DNA of 64,000 bases from Anaerococcus ihuae (GTDB lineage Bacteria > Bacillota > Clostridia > Tissierellales > Peptoniphilaceae). The position numbers and the translations under genes are program-made. Where the stretch lies: assembly GCF_928368155.1 (NCBI RefSeq), contig NZ_CAKMRU010000002.1, positions 310,001 through 374,000 of the forward strand. Direction: 5' to 3'. The notes under the pieces were generated by a model. The model worked only from the letters and a program-made list of their open reading frames with translations, made no database searches and was not told the DNA's origin. Positions 6,624-64,000 of this stretch are shown here, one piece after another. Positions within the stretch are counted from its first letter, which is position 1; each line of letters begins with the position of its first letter.

Positions 6624-9600
6624 ATGGCAAGTTTTAAATCATTAGATACAAAAAATACCAAACAAAGAGAACTTGATCTTTCCAAATATTGGGCAGATAT
6701 AGACCTATTGGATAAGACTTTTACAACAAGAGAAGATGCTGAAGAATATATAATCTATGATGGACCTCCAACTGCAAATGGAAAACCAGGAATCCATCAC
6801 GTTATAGCAAGAACCTTGAAGGATATGACTTCAAGATATAAAAATATGAGGGGCTTTAAGGTTTTAAAAAAAGCTGGATGGGATACACATGGACTTCCTG
6901 TTGAAATCGAAGTTGAAAAAGAATTAGGTTTTACAGAAAAAGATCAAATCGAAGCTTACGGCGTTGAAAAATTCAATCAAAAATGTAAGGACTCAGTTTT
7001 TAAATATTCAGACATGTGGAGAGATATGTCAGACAGAATGGCTTTTCTTTATGATATGGATAATCCTTATATAACTTTGGACAATGATTATATTGAAACT
7101 GAATGGTGGCTATTAAACCAAGCTTTTAAAAAAGGATTAATTTATGAAGGCGCAAAAGTTATGCCATATTGCCCAAGATGTGGTACAGGTCTTGCAAGTC
7201 ACGAAGTTGCTCAAGGCTATCAAATGGATAAGGCCATAACTTTAATTTGTAAATTTAAGAAAAAAGATGCCGACAATGAATATTTCCTAGCTTGGACAAC
7301 AACTCCATGGACTCTTCCATCAAACGTAGCTTTAACTGTTCATCCAGAACTTGACTATGTAAAAGTAAATGATAAAACTGATGGCTGCTATTATTATTTG
7401 GCAAAATCTTTGCTTGAAAAAGTTATGGCAGATCATGAGTATGAAGTTGTTGAAGAGATGAAGGGAAAAGATCTTGAGTATGTTGAATACGAACAATTAC
7501 TTCCATATGTAAAGCCAGATGGCAAGGCATTTTTCTTAACTTGTGCTGATTATGTTTCAGCAGAAGACGGTACAGGAATTGTTCACACAGCTCCAGCTTT
7601 TGGTGAAGACGACTACCAACTTGGAAGAAAATATAATTTGCCATTTGTTCAACCAGTTGACCTTGAAGGATGTTTTACAGAAACTCCTTGGAAGGGCAAA
7701 TTTATTTTTGATACAAACGAAGAAATTTTCCTACATTTAAGAGATGAGGGAAAAGTTTATAAAAAACAAACAATCGAACACAATTATCCTCACTGTTGGA
7801 GATGTAAAACTCCACTTGTTTATTATGCAAAACCATCTTGGTATATAGAAATGAGCAAACTTTCTGAAAAAATGGTTGAAAATAATAACGGAGTTAATTG
7901 GTATCCACAAACAATTGGTGATAAAAGATTTGGAAATTGGCTTGAAAATGTAAAAGATTGGGCAATTTCAAGATCAAGATATTGGGGAACTCCACTAAAT
8001 CTTTGGAGATGTGACGATTGTGGTCATGTTGAATCAATCGGTTCAAGAAAAGAATTGGCTGAAAAAGCAAGAGAAAATATAAGTGAAGATATAGAACTTC
8101 ACAGACCATATGTTGACGATGTAACAATAACTTGTCCGGATTGTGGAAAAGTAATGCATAGGGTTCCAGATGTAATTGACGTTTGGTTTGACTCAGGAGC
8201 AATGCCATTTTCACAAGTTCATTATCCATTTGCAAAGGGAGAAGATTTTGAAAATTATTTCCCAGCAGATTTCATTTGCGAAGGAATTGACCAAACAAGA
8301 GGATGGTTCTATTCATTAATGGCAATTTCAACAATTATTACAGGCAAAGCACCATACAAAAATGTTTTGGTAAATGACCTCGTTGTTGATAAAAACGGAC
8401 AAAAAATGTCAAAATCAAAAGGAAATACATTAAATCCTTTCAAATTATTTGATAAATATGGGGCAGATGCAGTAAGATTTTATTCACTTTTTGTATCACC
8501 TTGCTGGGTTCCAACAAAATTTGACGAAAAAGGTCTAATCGAAGTTAAAAATAATTTCTTTAGGACAATCGAAAATGTTTATAACTTCTTTGTTCTTTAT
8601 GCAAATACAGATAATATAAGTCTTGATCAGATTAAAAATTTCAAAAATGTAGAACTTGAAGAAATTGACAAGTGGTTATATTCAAGATTAAATTCACTAT
8701 TAAAAGCCTATTATGAACAAATGGAATCTTTTGATTACAACAAGGTTGTTCATTTGGTAAATGATTTTGTTGTAGAAGATTTATCAAATTGGTATATAAG
8801 AAGAAATAGAAAGAGATTTTGGAGAGAAGATTTAACAGAATCTAAAAAAGCAGTTTATAAAACATGCTTTGATGTTTTGGTAAGTCTTTCAAAAATGACA
8901 GCTCCAATAGCTCCATTTATTTCAGAAGAAATCTACAGAAATTTGACCAATGGACTTTCAGTTCACGTTGAAAAACTTGATGAGGTTAATGAAGATTTAA
9001 TTGACCAAAAATTAGAAGAGAAAATGGATCTTGTAAGAAAAATGGTAACTCTTGGTCGTGCATCAAGGGAAAAAGAATCAATCAAGGTTCGTCAACCTCT
9101 AGAAAAAATAATTGTAGATGGATCATTTAAAGAAAAAATCGGTGATTTGACAGGCTTAATCAAAGAAGAATTAAATATTAAAGAAGTTGAATTTGCAGAT
9201 GATCTTTCAGACTTTATGGATTATTATCTAAAACCAAATTTCAGAAAAGTTGGACAAATTTTCGCTAAAAACGTAGGAGCTTTTGGAAAATTCTTGGCAG
9301 GCGTTGATGCAAAAGAATTTGTAGAAAAGGTTGAAAATTCTCCACAAGAAATAGAAATAAATGGAGAAAAATACACAGTTGAAAAAGATTATCTTGACGT
9401 AAGAATCCAAGCAAAAGAAGGATTTGATGTTGAGATGGACGGAAATGTATTTGTAGTTTTGGATACAGAAATTACAGAAGAACTTAAAAAAGAAGGATAC
9501 GCAAGAGAGTTTGTATCAAAAATCCAAAATCTTAGAAAAGATAATGGCTATGAAGTTACAGACAGAATCGACATTTTCTTTAGTGCAGACGACGAATTGA

Positions 9601-58564: not shown

Positions 58565-58609
58565 ACAGAAAACGTTATCTTAATTGTCGACAAATGATAG
58601 GTTTTGAAT

Positions 58610-58681
58610 AAAAGCGATATATTCTCATAATTTGGTTGAGAGTTTCTACCACTTACCGTAAATAAGTAGCTATGGCTTTTA
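58610..58681 (+). promoter_or_regulatory. Purine riboswitch, guanine type
   Basis: P1 is AAAAGC (58610-58615) with GCTTTT (58675-58680), P2 TCTCA/TGAGA (58623-58641) and P3 ACTTA/TAAGT (58651-58667). The junction strand GTTTCTACC and loop CCGTAAA match the family. The ligand-discriminating base, just before TATG, is C at 58670, which selects guanine (hypoxanthine/xanthine less) over adenine. The expression platform is unclear: only a weak ATAGTTA/TAACTAT hairpin follows. Confidence 0.92.
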
Positions 58682-58749
58682 CAGATTGATAGTTAATCTT
58701 AAATAACTATAACTATTAAATTAGAAAAAAATTATGAAGGAGGATCCTT

Positions 58750-60179: not shown

Positions 60180-61454
60180 ATGACAAGAACTTTTGCCCTA
60201 AAGGGAAATATAATTTATAGTAAAAATCAAAACGAAATAAATTTTTGTGAAAATTCTTATTTGATTTGTAAAGACGGACTTTCAATGGGAGTTTTTGAAA
60301 AATTAGATGAAAAATATAAAGACATAGAAGTCATAGATTTTGGAGAAAAAATAATTTGTCCAGGTCTTACAGATCTTCATATCCACGCCCCTCAGTATAA
60401 TTTTAGGGGCATGGGCATGGATTTAGAACTCTTGGACTGGTTAAATACCTACACCTTTCCAAGTGAGGCGAAATTTAAAGAAGAAAATTATGCCAAAAAA
60501 TCCTACCAAAGATTTGTAGATTATTTAAAATATGGACCAAATACAAGACATGTGATTTTTTCAAGTCTTCACGTGAAATCTACAATAATTTTGATGGATT
60601 TGATGGAAAAATCAAAAATGGTTTCTTTTGTCGGAAAAGTAAATATGGACAGAAATGGTGGAGTAGATCTTGAAGAAAAAGATGCAGTGGAATCAGAAAA
60701 AGCCACTCTTGATTGGCTTGAATCCATTAAAGGAAAATACAAAAACACCTATCCAATTTTAACACCAAGATTTATCCCATCATGTACTGACGAATTGCTT
60801 GAAAAATTGAGAAAAATAAAAGATGACTACAATCTTCCTATCCAATCCCACTTATCAGAAAATTTGGGTGAGATAGAATGGGTCAAGGAATTAGTTCCTA
60901 AGGCTAAATTTTATGGAGATGCCTACAATATTTTTGATTTATTTGGCAAAAATAACAAGACGGTGATGGCCCATTGTGTATATTCAAATGAAGACGAACA
61001 AAGTTTGATAAAAGAAAATGGAGTTTACATTGCCCACTGTCCGGATTCAAATACCAATCTTACATCAGGAATTGCTCCTGCAGGAAAATACCTAAGAGAA
61101 GGGCAAAAAATTGGGCTTGGATCAGATGTGGCAGGTGGAACTCACGCATCAATATTTAAGGCCATGGCAGATGCCATAAAAGTTTCAAAATTAAGATACA
61201 GATTATTAGACGAAAAAATAAAACCTTTAAGCCTTGAAGAAGCCTTTTATATGGGAACTTTGGGCGGAGGAGAGTTTTTTGGAAAAGTCGGATCATTTGA
61301 AAAAGGATACGAATTTGATGCAATAATAATTGACGATGAAAAATTATTAGAAGAAGATGAATTTAACTTAAAACAAAGATTAGAAAGAATAGTATATCTT
61401 TCAAAAGATGAAGATATAATTTCAAAATTTGTCAGAGGAGTAAAAATATTTTAA
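60180..61454 (+). CDS. guaD: Guanine deaminase
   Basis: A 424-residue amidohydrolase. Metal ligands: LHIHAPQYNFRGMG, SHLSEN, MAHCVYSN and GSDVAGGTHASI; AHCPDSNTNLTSG is a guanine deaminase hallmark. Converts guanine to xanthine and ammonia, feeding xanthine to the hydroxylase pathway elsewhere in the window. Co-transcribed with the permease under the riboswitch, ended by a strong terminator. Confidence 0.94.
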   Translation: MTRTFALKGNIIYSKNQNEINFCENSYLICKDGLSMGVFEKLDEKYKDIEVIDFGEKIICPGLTDLHIHAPQYNFRGMGMDLELLDWLNTYTFPSEAKFKEENYAKKSYQRFVDYLKYGPNTRHVIFSSLHVKSTIILMDLMEKSKMVSFVGKVNMDRNGGVDLEEKDAVESEKATLDWLESIKGKYKNTYPILTPRFIPSCTDELLEKLRKIKDDYNLPIQSHLSENLGEIEWVKELVPKAKFYGDAYNIFDLFGKNNKTVMAHCVYSNEDEQSLIKENGVYIAHCPDSNTNLTSGIAPAGKYLREGQKIGLGSDVAGGTHASIFKAMADAIKVSKLRYRLLDEKIKPLSLEEAFYMGTLGGGEFFGKVGSFEKGYEFDAIIIDDEKLLEEDEFNLKQRLERIVYLSKDEDIISKFVRGVKIF

Positions 61455-61537: not shown

Positions 61538-61644
61538 ATTTCAAACTTTACAAAATCATTAAAAAACTTACATACGTTTTCAATAAAATTATTTTTCTAT
61601 AAATATTTTTAATTCTTAAAATAAGTATAAGTCAAAACTTATTC

Positions 61645-61673
61645 TTGACAAAAATCAATAAGTAATGTAAACT
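61645..61673 (+). promoter_or_regulatory. Promoter of the tryptophanase-like gene
   Basis: TTGACA (61645-61650), 17-base spacer, TAAACT (61668-61673). Predicted start about 61680 leaves a 220-base leader before the gene. Confidence 0.75.
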
Positions 61674-61700
61674 ATTTCATAGATAATTCTAGAATTTTTC

Positions 61701-61856
61701 GGAGTGCTGACCGCTCATCAATTTATTTTTGATATGTGGGAAATTTTAAATTTTAACCACTAATCTACAATCATTTTTGATAACCGGGGTTCTCAATTTG
61801 GATACTGTCCGCTAGTTAATTATTTTAAATTAATGACCGGGGTTCCTCTGTACAGT
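61701..61856 (+). promoter_or_regulatory. Candidate tandem structured leader RNA before the tryptophanase-like gene
   Basis: Two related units. Unit 1: GGA (61701), CTGACCGCT (61707-61715), hairpin ATCAA/TTGAT, hairpin GTGG/CCAC (61736-61760), hairpin ATCA/TGAT, ACCGGGGTTC (61783-61792). Unit 2: GGA (61800), CTGTCCGCT (61805-61813), hairpin TTAATT/AATTAA, ACCGGGGTTC (61836-61845), closed by ACTGT/ACAGT (61804-61808, 61852-61856). Single-strand blocks are conserved while hairpins vary, as in tandem riboswitches. No known class is recognised. It occupies most of the 446-bp gap. Confidence 0.6.
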
Positions 61857-61900
61857 TTAACTTATAACTATTAACGTAGCTATTATATGGAGGCATTAAA

Positions 61901-63544
61901 ATGAAAAAGTATCAATTGAATGTACCTACACCACATTCTTACACTTATGTAACAAAAAATATTCCAAACGTAACAATTGAACAAAGAGAAAGAGCATTAA
62001 AAGCAACTCACTACAATGAATTTGCATTCCCAGCAGGCATGCTTACAATCGATATGCTTTCAGATTCAGGTACAACTGCGATGACAGATGTGCAATGGTC
62101 TGCAATGTTTTTGGGAGATGAATCTTATGGTAGAAATAAGGGATATTATGTACTTTTAGATACATTTAGAGATGTATTTGAAAGAGGAAATGATCAAAAA
62201 AGAATAATTGACCTAGTAAGAACTGATTGCGAAGACGTAGAAAAAATGATGGATGAAGTTTATTTATGTGAATATGAAGGCGGATTATTTAATGGTGGAT
62301 CTGCTCAAATGGAAAGACCAAACACATTTATCATCCAACAAGGTCGTGCAGCTGAATCAGTATTATTTGAACTTGTAAAAAATATATTAAATAGTAGAGA
62401 ACCAGGAAAAACTTATACAATTCCTTCAAACGGACACTTTGATACAACAGAAGGAAATATCAAACAAATGGGTTCAATTCCAAGAAACCTTTATAATAAA
62501 GAATTATTATGGGAAGTTCCAGAAGGTGGTAAATACGAAAAGAATCCATTCAAAGGAAATATGGATACAGAAAAACTAGAAGAGTTAATTACAAAACTAG
62601 GACCAGAAAATGTACCATTAGTTTATACAACAATAACAAACAATACAGTTTGTGGACAACCAGTATCTATGGCAAACTTAAGAGAATGCTCAAGAATTGC
62701 TCATAAATACGATATTCCTTATATGTTTGATGCAGCTAGATGGGCAGAAAATGCTTATTTCATAAAAGTAAATGAAGAAGGCTACCAAGATAAATCTATA
62801 AATGAAATAGCTCAAGAAATGTTCTCATACTGTGATGGATTTACAGCATCTCTTAAAAAAGATGGACATGCAAATATGGGTGGAGTTTTAGCATTTAGAG
62901 ATAAGGGATTATTCTGGAAGAAATTCTCAGACTTTAATGAAGATGGATCAGTTAAAACTGACGTAGGTATCCTACTAAAAGTAAAACAAATTTCATGCTA
63001 TGGTAATGATTCATACGGTGGAATGAGTGGTAGAGATATTATGGCTCTTGCTGCAGGTCTTTATGAAGCATCAAAATTTGAATACTTAGATGCACGTACA
63101 AAACAATGTGAATACTTGGCTCAAGGATTCTATAAAGCAGGAGTAAAAGGTGTTGTACTTCCAGCAGGTGGACACGGTGTTTATATAAATATGGACGAGT
63201 TCTTTGACAACAAGAGAGCTCCAGAAACTTTTGCAGGCCAAGGTTTCTCAGTAGAACTTATTAGAAGATACGGAATAAGAACAGCTGAACTTGGAAACTA
63301 TTCAATGGAATACGATCTAAAAACACCAGAACAACAAAAAGAAGTAGCTAACGTAGTTAGATTTGCAGTTAATAGAAGTCAACTTAGCAAAGAACATATG
63401 GACTATGTAATAGCAGCAGTTAAAGCATTGTATGAAGACAGAGCAACAATACCTAATATAAAAATTGTAAAAGGTCATAGTCTACCAATGCGTCACTTCC
63501 ACGCATTCCTAGAACCATATGAACCAAGTGAAGAAGAAAAATAA
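61901..63544 (+). CDS. tnaA: Tryptophanase-like beta-eliminating lyase
   Basis: A 547-residue PLP enzyme of the tryptophanase/tyrosine phenol-lyase family. Landmarks: DMLSDSGTTAMTDVQWSAM, QQGRAAESVLFE, MFDAARWAENAYF and the PLP lysine segment FTASLKKDGHANMGG. It is ~75 residues longer than E. coli TnaA, with extra sequence in the N-terminal third (ERGNDQKRIIDLVRTDCEDV). It should split tryptophan to indole, pyruvate and ammonia, or tyrosine to phenol; the choice cannot be settled by eye. GGAGG precedes the ATG. An NSS amino-acid symporter follows. Confidence 0.88.
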   Translation: MKKYQLNVPTPHSYTYVTKNIPNVTIEQRERALKATHYNEFAFPAGMLTIDMLSDSGTTAMTDVQWSAMFLGDESYGRNKGYYVLLDTFRDVFERGNDQKRIIDLVRTDCEDVEKMMDEVYLCEYEGGLFNGGSAQMERPNTFIIQQGRAAESVLFELVKNILNSREPGKTYTIPSNGHFDTTEGNIKQMGSIPRNLYNKELLWEVPEGGKYEKNPFKGNMDTEKLEELITKLGPENVPLVYTTITNNTVCGQPVSMANLRECSRIAHKYDIPYMFDAARWAENAYFIKVNEEGYQDKSINEIAQEMFSYCDGFTASLKKDGHANMGGVLAFRDKGLFWKKFSDFNEDGSVKTDVGILLKVKQISCYGNDSYGGMSGRDIMALAAGLYEASKFEYLDARTKQCEYLAQGFYKAGVKGVVLPAGGHGVYINMDEFFDNKRAPETFAGQGFSVELIRRYGIRTAELGNYSMEYDLKTPEQQKEVANVVRFAVNRSQLSKEHMDYVIAAVKALYEDRATIPNIKIVKGHSLPMRHFHAFLEPYEPSEEEK

Positions 63545-63603: not shown

Positions 63604-64000
63604 ATGGAAAATAAAATATCAAACAGAGACGGTTTTAAGTCTAAGTGGGGATTTATCCTTGCATGTATAGGATCTGCAGTTGGAATGGGAAATATTTGGA
63701 GATTTCCTATCCTTGTTTCTCAATATGGTGGAATGACATTTTTGATTCCTTATTTTATATTTGTAGTTTTGATAGCTACAACAGGAGTAATAACAGAAAT
63801 GGCTCTAGGTCGTTCAACAGAATCTGGAACAGTAAGAGCTTTTGGTAAGTGTACTGAATTAAAATATGGAAATAAAAAAATAGGTGAAGGTCTTGGAGTA
63901 ATACCAGTAGCAGGCTCACTTGCTCTTGCCATAGGCTATACTTGTGTTATGGCTTGGATATTTAAATATACATTCATGGCTTTTTCAGGAGAACTTAGTG
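63604..64000 (+). CDS. Neurotransmitter:sodium symporter (NSS/SNF) family transporter, 3' end outside window
   Basis: 132 residues are visible. SKWGFILACIGSAVGMGNIWRFP is the family hallmark of TM1 with the sodium/substrate site; further helices follow (PYFIFVVLIATTGVITEMALG). Bacterial members beside tryptophanase import tryptophan or tyrosine with sodium (TnaT-like). GGGAG lies before the ATG. The gene is cut by the window end. Confidence 0.92.
   Translation, partial: MENKISNRDGFKSKWGFILACIGSAVGMGNIWRFPILVSQYGGMTFLIPYFIFVVLIATTGVITEMALGRSTESGTVRAFGKCTELKYGNKKIGEGLGVIPVAGSLALAIGYTCVMAWIFKYTFMAFSGELS

Follow-up and report, generated by a model that had tools for sequence, protein, structure and literature searches.

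What kind of element is the leader that precedes the tryptophanase gene of Anaerococcus ihuae, and how might it act on that gene? Within the window, by which we mean the whole 64,000-nucleotide stretch of DNA that was analysed, two units of one RNA motif occupy positions 61701-61849 upstream of tnaA (Table 1). A tandem of units with the same ordered blocks in front of a tryptophanase-like gene had been proposed in a first-pass annotation, and both units are present in the sequence, each with the block order GGA(G), CTGnCCGCT, variable hairpin and ACCGGGGTTC. We interpret the leader as a translational ON riboswitch through which tryptophan would induce its own catabolism, a reading to which we assign a probability of roughly 60%.

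Table 1. Positions in the window of the leader elements and of the genes that follow them.
Feature	Position	Strand	Basis or remark
Promoter-like site TTGACA-17-TAAACT	61645..61673	+	10 of 12 matches, weak relative to shuffles; start expected near 61680
Unit 1, aptamer-like	61701..61796	+	match to covariance model R2, E 9.9e-4
Unit 1, block GGAG	61701-61704		
Unit 1, block CTGACCGCT	61707-61715		
Unit 1, long P3 insertion	61716-61782		contains an extra hairpin
Unit 1, block ACCGGGGTTC	61783-61792		
Unit 2, aptamer-like	61799..61849	+	covariance models R1 (E 1.2e-14) and R2 (E 3.7e-9); pair counts
Unit 2, block GGA	61800-61802		
Unit 2, block CTGTCCGCT	61805-61813		
Unit 2, P2 (CCG/CGG)	61809-61811 with 61838-61840		
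Unit 2, P3 hairpin	61815-61834		
Unit 2, block ACCGGGGTTC	61836-61845		
Anti-Shine-Dalgarno stretch CCUCUGUA	61845..61852	+	overlaps the 3' strand of unit 2 P1; pairs with 61886-61893 in the minimum-energy fold of 61795-61912
tnaA Shine-Dalgarno site UAUGGAGG	61886..61893	+	read in the sequence; leader statistics; fold
tnaA, long-form tryptophanase, 547 aa	61901..63544	+	PDB and NCBIfam matches
Sodium:neurotransmitter-type symporter	63604..64000	+	truncated at the edge of the window; genomic copy 446 aa; Pfam SNF

In unit 2, P1 is formed by GGA..AC and GU..UCC with U61803 bulged, and encloses a UGU/G internal loop, P2 and the P3 hairpin, while unit 1 has an outer GAG/CUC pairing and a long P3 insertion. 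The nearest relatives share such a long P3 insertion, as do some loci from another genus, as against the short P3 of others. A TGTAAACT stretch upstream of the motif recurs in several related loci. The promoter-like site had been called a good one; its score stands, but such sites arise by chance in this AT-rich stretch, where six were found against a shuffled mean of 3.7. No terminator-like site was detected between positions 61400 and 62000. Because the whole leader does not fold more stably than its shuffles (z = 0.31), the evidence for the motif is comparative rather than energetic.

Among 249 genomes of the order, an exact pattern of the two blocks matched 15, distributed over three genera, and a reversed control pattern matched none. 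As the first-pass annotation had proposed, covariance models were then derived from homologous leaders. Model R1, built from alignment A1 (17 of 25 distinct units), detects the motif in 24 of the 130 family genomes; a class sample of 391 genomes gives six, one of these from another family. Model R2, built from the 46 diverse units of alignment A3, gives matches with E up to 0.01 in 25 of the 130 family genomes, always 27-53 nt before a long-form tnaA gene and nowhere else, and in none of the 94 family genomes that lack this gene. R2 also matched in 7 of the 391 genomes of the class sample and in one of the 348 of a phylum sample, namely the window's own genome; at such counts the distribution is patchy, as seen with the stricter filters of the large model searches, at which weak matches are lost.

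Long-form tnaA (73% identity or more) occurs in 36 of the 130 family genomes, and in 10 of these no motif-like stretch was found upstream of it, so that the motif is not essential for tnaA. In another genome (G153) a unit with a long loop, missed by the model, precedes the gene. Gene neighbours in the motif-less genomes were named by eye: in two loci from the window's genus (L007 and L231) tnaA directly follows a pdxS-like gene, perhaps reflecting a different mode of control, and in one further family genome it follows a ridA-like gene.

A scan of one genome per species with the exact pattern, from which records very near the window may be absent, yielded 83 stretches, with 80 readable loci among them. 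A tnaA gene lies downstream in 77 of the 80, by automatic call in 75 and by reading in L083 and L132, the latter including just the first tryptophanase residues. The loci belong, among others, to Peptoniphilus, Anaerococcus, Murdochiella, Levyella, Neofamilia, Oscillibacter, Flavonifractor, Dysosmobacter, Agathobaculum, Butyricicoccus, Anaerotruncus and Anaerotignum, and to the gammaproteobacterium Zophobihabitans entericus. The blocks are therefore conserved in both related and distant genomes and stand nearly always before tnaA; by computation, then, the motif forms a family associated with this gene. Two of the pattern loci (L081 and L131) were judged on reading to be chance matches. In a Pseudoflavonifractor locus (L086) the motif and the ribosome-binding site are kept and a symporter follows, tblastn detects no tryptophanase within the 8-kb locus, and a second copy of the motif with tnaA lies elsewhere in the same genome.

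We also scanned carrier genomes, taking 50 of 60 loci, and recovered the motif in 50 of 50, as expected from this choice. Further sites with E below 1e-7 comprised two new places, in the Pseudoflavonifractor genome and in Oscillibacter sp. 1-3, and two tandem partners, in Oscillibacter sp. 1-3 and in an Oscillibacter MAG (L069), all of them before tnaA; two weaker matches (E 0.007 and 0.03) were rejected as apparent coding DNA. The leader had been described as a tandem aptamer, and in the window there are indeed two units with conserved blocks, but the basic element of the family is a single unit, usually 42-68 nt long: most loci have one, and tandem units occur in 11 of the 78 named loci (in Oscillibacter sp. 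1-3 their starts lie about 196 nt apart).

In the family to which Zophobihabitans belongs the motif is present in one of 44 genomes, and this distribution suggests that the motif was transferred together with tnaA. A phage origin was considered and set aside, as no similar phage record was found; a pattern match on a viral contig, with dense reading frames and no tnaA nearby, was judged to be chance, and plasmids gave just one partial 30-base match (E 0.1). The same distribution bears on the idea that the leader is bound by an RNA-binding protein, responsive to tryptophan or indole, which governs access to the Shine-Dalgarno sequence. Small stem-loops that are conserved upstream of a single gene, at times as tandem copies, are typical of protein targets too, and the model matches lie before no gene but tnaA, which counts against our reading insofar as a general tryptophan sensor might also precede trp genes or other transporter genes; a site before a single gene could equally be a protein target. 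The core is conserved between Bacillota and a gammaproteobacterium that is the sole carrier among the 44 genomes of its family; since the protein would have had to move together with its site, this argues weakly against the idea, and we consider a protein target distinctly unlikely. Our preferred interpretation remains a riboswitch, with the RNA itself as the sensor.

For this, each unit should adopt a conserved fold. The comparison of units supports a P1 helix, an asymmetric UGU/G internal loop, a P2 helix (CCG/CGG), a second loop (CYN/RAC) and a covarying, variable P3 hairpin, with good support for P3 and moderate support for P1. In alignment A3 (P1 at columns 3-7/60-64, P2 at 11-13/56-58, P3 at 17-21/48-52), which holds 46 of 81 units, all picked by a pattern that fixes both blocks and so leaves no room for variation in P2 and in parts of P1, 90.8% of the pairs are standard, compared with at most 46.5% in slid controls. 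The covariation score of A3 is 0.212, compared with at most 0.115 when slid and reached by none of 500 shuffles, and both sides of a pair have changed in 36 cells. Alignment A1, in which P2, P3 and two added pairs were scored, gave 97.1% pairs and a score of 0.339 (slid controls at most 62.4% and 0.154). P1 taken alone draws its support mainly from pairing, in 91.3% of cases against at most 63.0% when slid, and covaries weakly (0.169 against up to 0.159); RNAalifold applied to A3 recovers P2 and two P3 pairs and not P1, and in a unit of Oscillibacter sp. 1-3 P1 has changed to CAC/GUG with its pairing kept. As in riboswitches, the 5' leader of a metabolic gene thus holds a structured domain that is conserved, with covariation over the structure as a whole. 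Within P3, the string GGGAA is present in 24 of the 48 units whose P3 region is at least 28 nt long (for example in L094, L104 and L117), a count made with no control; it is possibly a conserved loop or a tertiary contact.

We then asked how such a fold might be connected to translation. The leader set was drawn from 85 loci (those other than L081, L131 and L086), from which six with no start codon found by the script were dropped and repeats removed, giving 70 leaders. A GGAGG sequence precedes the start codon in 68 of the 70, and CCTC or CTCC lies within 13 nt after GGGGT in 60, a count to be read with the fact that most of these loci were retrieved by a pattern fixing W, Y and C after GGGGT, which favours an anti-Shine-Dalgarno match. 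The 3' strand of P1 runs into this CCUC/CUCC stretch, which is complementary to the Shine-Dalgarno GGAGG. The resulting duplex has a mean energy of -8.8 kcal/mol, compared with -4.8 for shuffled sequences and -8.4 for partners swapped between loci; none of 200 cross-locus swaps was as strong, a comparison that ignores relatedness and in which -8.4 is close to -8.8.

Folding predictions agree with a competing helix. In 54 of 70 lowest-energy folds, four or more bases of the Shine-Dalgarno sequence are paired to the 14 nt that follow GGGG. The mean unpaired probability of the Shine-Dalgarno sequence is 0.086 compared with 0.281 when the linker is shuffled (lower in 64 of 70), and in each of the 70 leaders two or more P1 bases are used by the duplex. 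In the window itself, the helix between CCUCUGUA and UAUGGAGG is present in the minimum-energy fold of positions 61795-61912 and absent when 30 nt of coding sequence are included. Among the 53 leaders that are long enough, 32 have a perfect hairpin with five or more pairs between the anti-Shine-Dalgarno and Shine-Dalgarno stretches, often GGCGC/GCGCC, GACGC/GCGTC or GGTGC/GCACC and in a few cases made of A and T only, again counted with no control.

The expression platform, as computed, would be mutually exclusive with the aptamer, as is expected of a riboswitch. Since the formation of P1 and the sequestration of the Shine-Dalgarno sequence exclude each other, a ligand that stabilised P1 would act as an activator of translation. 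The same folds might also suit a structural element with no sensor, such as an mRNA stabiliser, an RNA thermometer or a simple damper of translation, in that at least four Shine-Dalgarno bases are paired in 63 of the 70. A damper or thermometer, on the other hand, should need neither invariant bases in an internal loop nor a separately conserved competing helix, and we regard such an element as very improbable.

Under the riboswitch model, each unit would be a small aptamer made up of P1, UGU/G, P2, CYN/RAC and P3. With no ligand present, the 3' side of P1 together with CCUC/CUCC would form a helix with GGAGG and so conceal the tnaA ribosome-binding site; the ligand, most likely L-tryptophan, would stabilise P1, removing bases from the anti-Shine-Dalgarno helix and allowing tryptophanase and symporter to be translated. 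Two units in series may sharpen the response, by analogy with known tandem riboswitches. We infer both the binding of a ligand and the ON direction; a catabolic enzyme such as tryptophanase would presumably be needed while its substrate is at hand.

The identity of the ligand has to be approached through the genes that the motif accompanies. The full-length best PDB match of the window's TnaA is 8sl7, named tryptophanase (1033.8 bits), and the protein passes the NCBIfam subfamily model NF009709 (609.7 bits, cut-off 285), which accepts tyrosine phenol-lyases too. Two tryptophanase equivalog models give it 356.4 and 309.2 bits and the phenol-lyase model 283.9, with no equivalog cut-off reached; the tryptophanase of a further genome (G001) is 99% identical to it. 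The motif precedes both long- and short-form tryptophanase-type enzymes. The short forms of L105 and Zophobihabitans score 731 and 708 bits with the tryptophanase subfamily model, and 574-620 with the tryptophanase equivalogs compared with 541 and 506 for phenol-lyase, in each case below all equivalog cut-offs.

As for transport, the symporter after the window's tnaA has 4us3 as its best PDB match and is probably the transporter of the tnaA operon. A symporter on the same strand follows tnaA in 35 of the 40 named loci with enough downstream sequence, and in Zophobihabitans entericus the next gene after tnaA encodes a tryptophan permease (599.4 bits, curated cut-off 515). No motif was found beside any of five tyrosine phenol-lyase genes examined; three genomes (G126, G127 and G128) contain the motif with tryptophanase and, separately, a tyrosine phenol-lyase above its equivalog cut-off that has no motif. 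Because a symporter or tryptophan permease follows tnaA and phenol-lyase genes lack the motif, the gene context points to tryptophan over tyrosine.

A riboswitch of the same architecture might nevertheless respond to another ligand, a compound that tryptophanase makes or uses as a cofactor, such as indole, pyridoxal phosphate (PLP) or 2-aminoacrylate/pyruvate. The association is with the enzyme, so that substrate, product and cofactor are all conceivable; moreover, a gene for RidA, an aminoacrylate/imine deaminase, lies directly upstream in 35 of 69 named loci, and the pdxS-like gene precedes tnaA in the two motif-less loci described above. Against this stand the symporters (35 of 40, the other five being unread) and the tryptophan permease of Zophobihabitans. 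A PLP sensor would be expected before other PLP genes, where there is no model match, and an ON switch would seem to suit induction by substrate better than feedback by product. We therefore regard another ligand as possible but unlikely, and retain tryptophan as the ligand of the proposed ON riboswitch.

Tryptophan could also be sensed by the ribosome, through a TnaC-like leader peptide or another upstream frame, and in E. coli tnaA is controlled in response to tryptophan by attenuation at the tnaC leader peptide. Unit 1 of the window does contain a short frame at 61734 (MWEILNFNH); it belongs to the P3 insertion, and the nearest relatives have not retained it. In 69 of the 70 leaders, scanned up to the start codon from a point 150 nt upstream of the first unit, tryptophan-containing frames of 5-60 codons occur in 33, against a shuffled mean of 43.5, and the TnaC-like string W-x-N occurs in none. 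From the last unit onward such frames are found in 16 of 70 leaders against 12.75 in shuffles, and most of them end in the TGG-AGG of the ribosome-binding site. As tryptophan-containing upstream frames are no commoner than in shuffles, a leader peptide is disfavoured and seems to us extremely improbable.

Indole released by gut bacteria is a signal to the host and to neighbouring bacteria, and the literature on tnaA is, among the matches listed, mainly on E. coli. If our reading is right, tryptophan induction in indole producers including Peptoniphilus, Anaerococcus, Oscillibacter, Flavonifractor, Agathobaculum, Anaerotruncus and Butyricicoccus would work through a small RNA acting on the translation of tnaA. 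We would give even odds to the wider proposal that the motif is the first natural tryptophan (or indole) aptamer class. On that proposal, one unit or a tandem would serve as a small translational ON switch for indole production in many anaerobic Bacillota, including gut species, and at least one gammaproteobacterium would have received the switch together with tnaA. A natural aptamer for tryptophan or indole would be new, and a unit of this small size lends itself to in-line probing, to structure determination and to biosensors.

How, finally, does the motif compare with known RNAs? That it resembles none of the riboswitch consensus sequences considered had been stated at the outset, and Rfam 15 bears this out: there is no match at gathering score at the motif, whether in the window, in the leader or in 17 homologous loci, and positions 61600-61950 gave three chance-level matches with E up to 10, while purine and glycine riboswitches were found elsewhere by the same scan, evidence that it detects known families. 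Glycine riboswitches are often tandem, and the platforms of amino-acid riboswitches work by pairing at the ribosome-binding site or in a terminator. In the part of a 2022 review available to us (PMC9971707), the validated amino-acid riboswitches are those for glycine, lysine and glutamine only, so that tryptophan, if sensed here, would be a fourth riboswitch-sensed amino acid. Like the motif, these three are leader RNAs before amino-acid genes; the motif differs from them in having no Rfam match and in its small core before tryptophanase.

Among published candidates, and going by the available parts of the source (PMC11109978), the trpB motif (SRC-39-1) is the nearest by topic: it too is a candidate leader RNA with a link to tryptophan, found in Firmicutes, but it has a terminator-like second hairpin and stands mostly before an ABC transporter and occasionally before trpB, whereas no terminator was found with our motif, which precedes tnaA, a separation that rests on the published description. 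The opuB motif (SRC-50-1) of the same source has five stems, occurs mostly in Enterobacteriaceae before opuB transporter genes and has an unpublished link to the use of aromatic amino acids; by its description it differs in host bacteria and in fold. Tandem T-boxes control trp operons in Bacillota, according to the portion seen of PMC12452182, but in the window and the homologous loci no Rfam T-box model matches at the motif, which precedes a catabolic gene and with which no terminator was found.

A tnaA leader RNA is absent from the main texts, as far as these were available, of PMC8632094, PMC11109978, PMC6429828, PMC10043782, PMC7266159 and PMC8537960, and no description of one was found in the searchable literature, a scope that leaves out supplements and most subscription papers. 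We place the motif as a new RNA family within the riboswitch or translational-leader kind, the trpB and opuB motifs having been compared by description only. One survey of 2017 reportedly yielded 224 candidate RNAs.

The Rfam scan also recorded two known elements. The sole gathering match in the window is an ordinary purine riboswitch (RF00167, positions 58595-58692, 50.9 bits), which precedes a 473-aa frame with no NCBIfam match and a guanine deaminase-like gene. In the Oscillibacter MAG, a glycine riboswitch lies at positions 6756-6859 on the minus strand of L069, an 8-kb locus that also holds a tandem pair of the motif.
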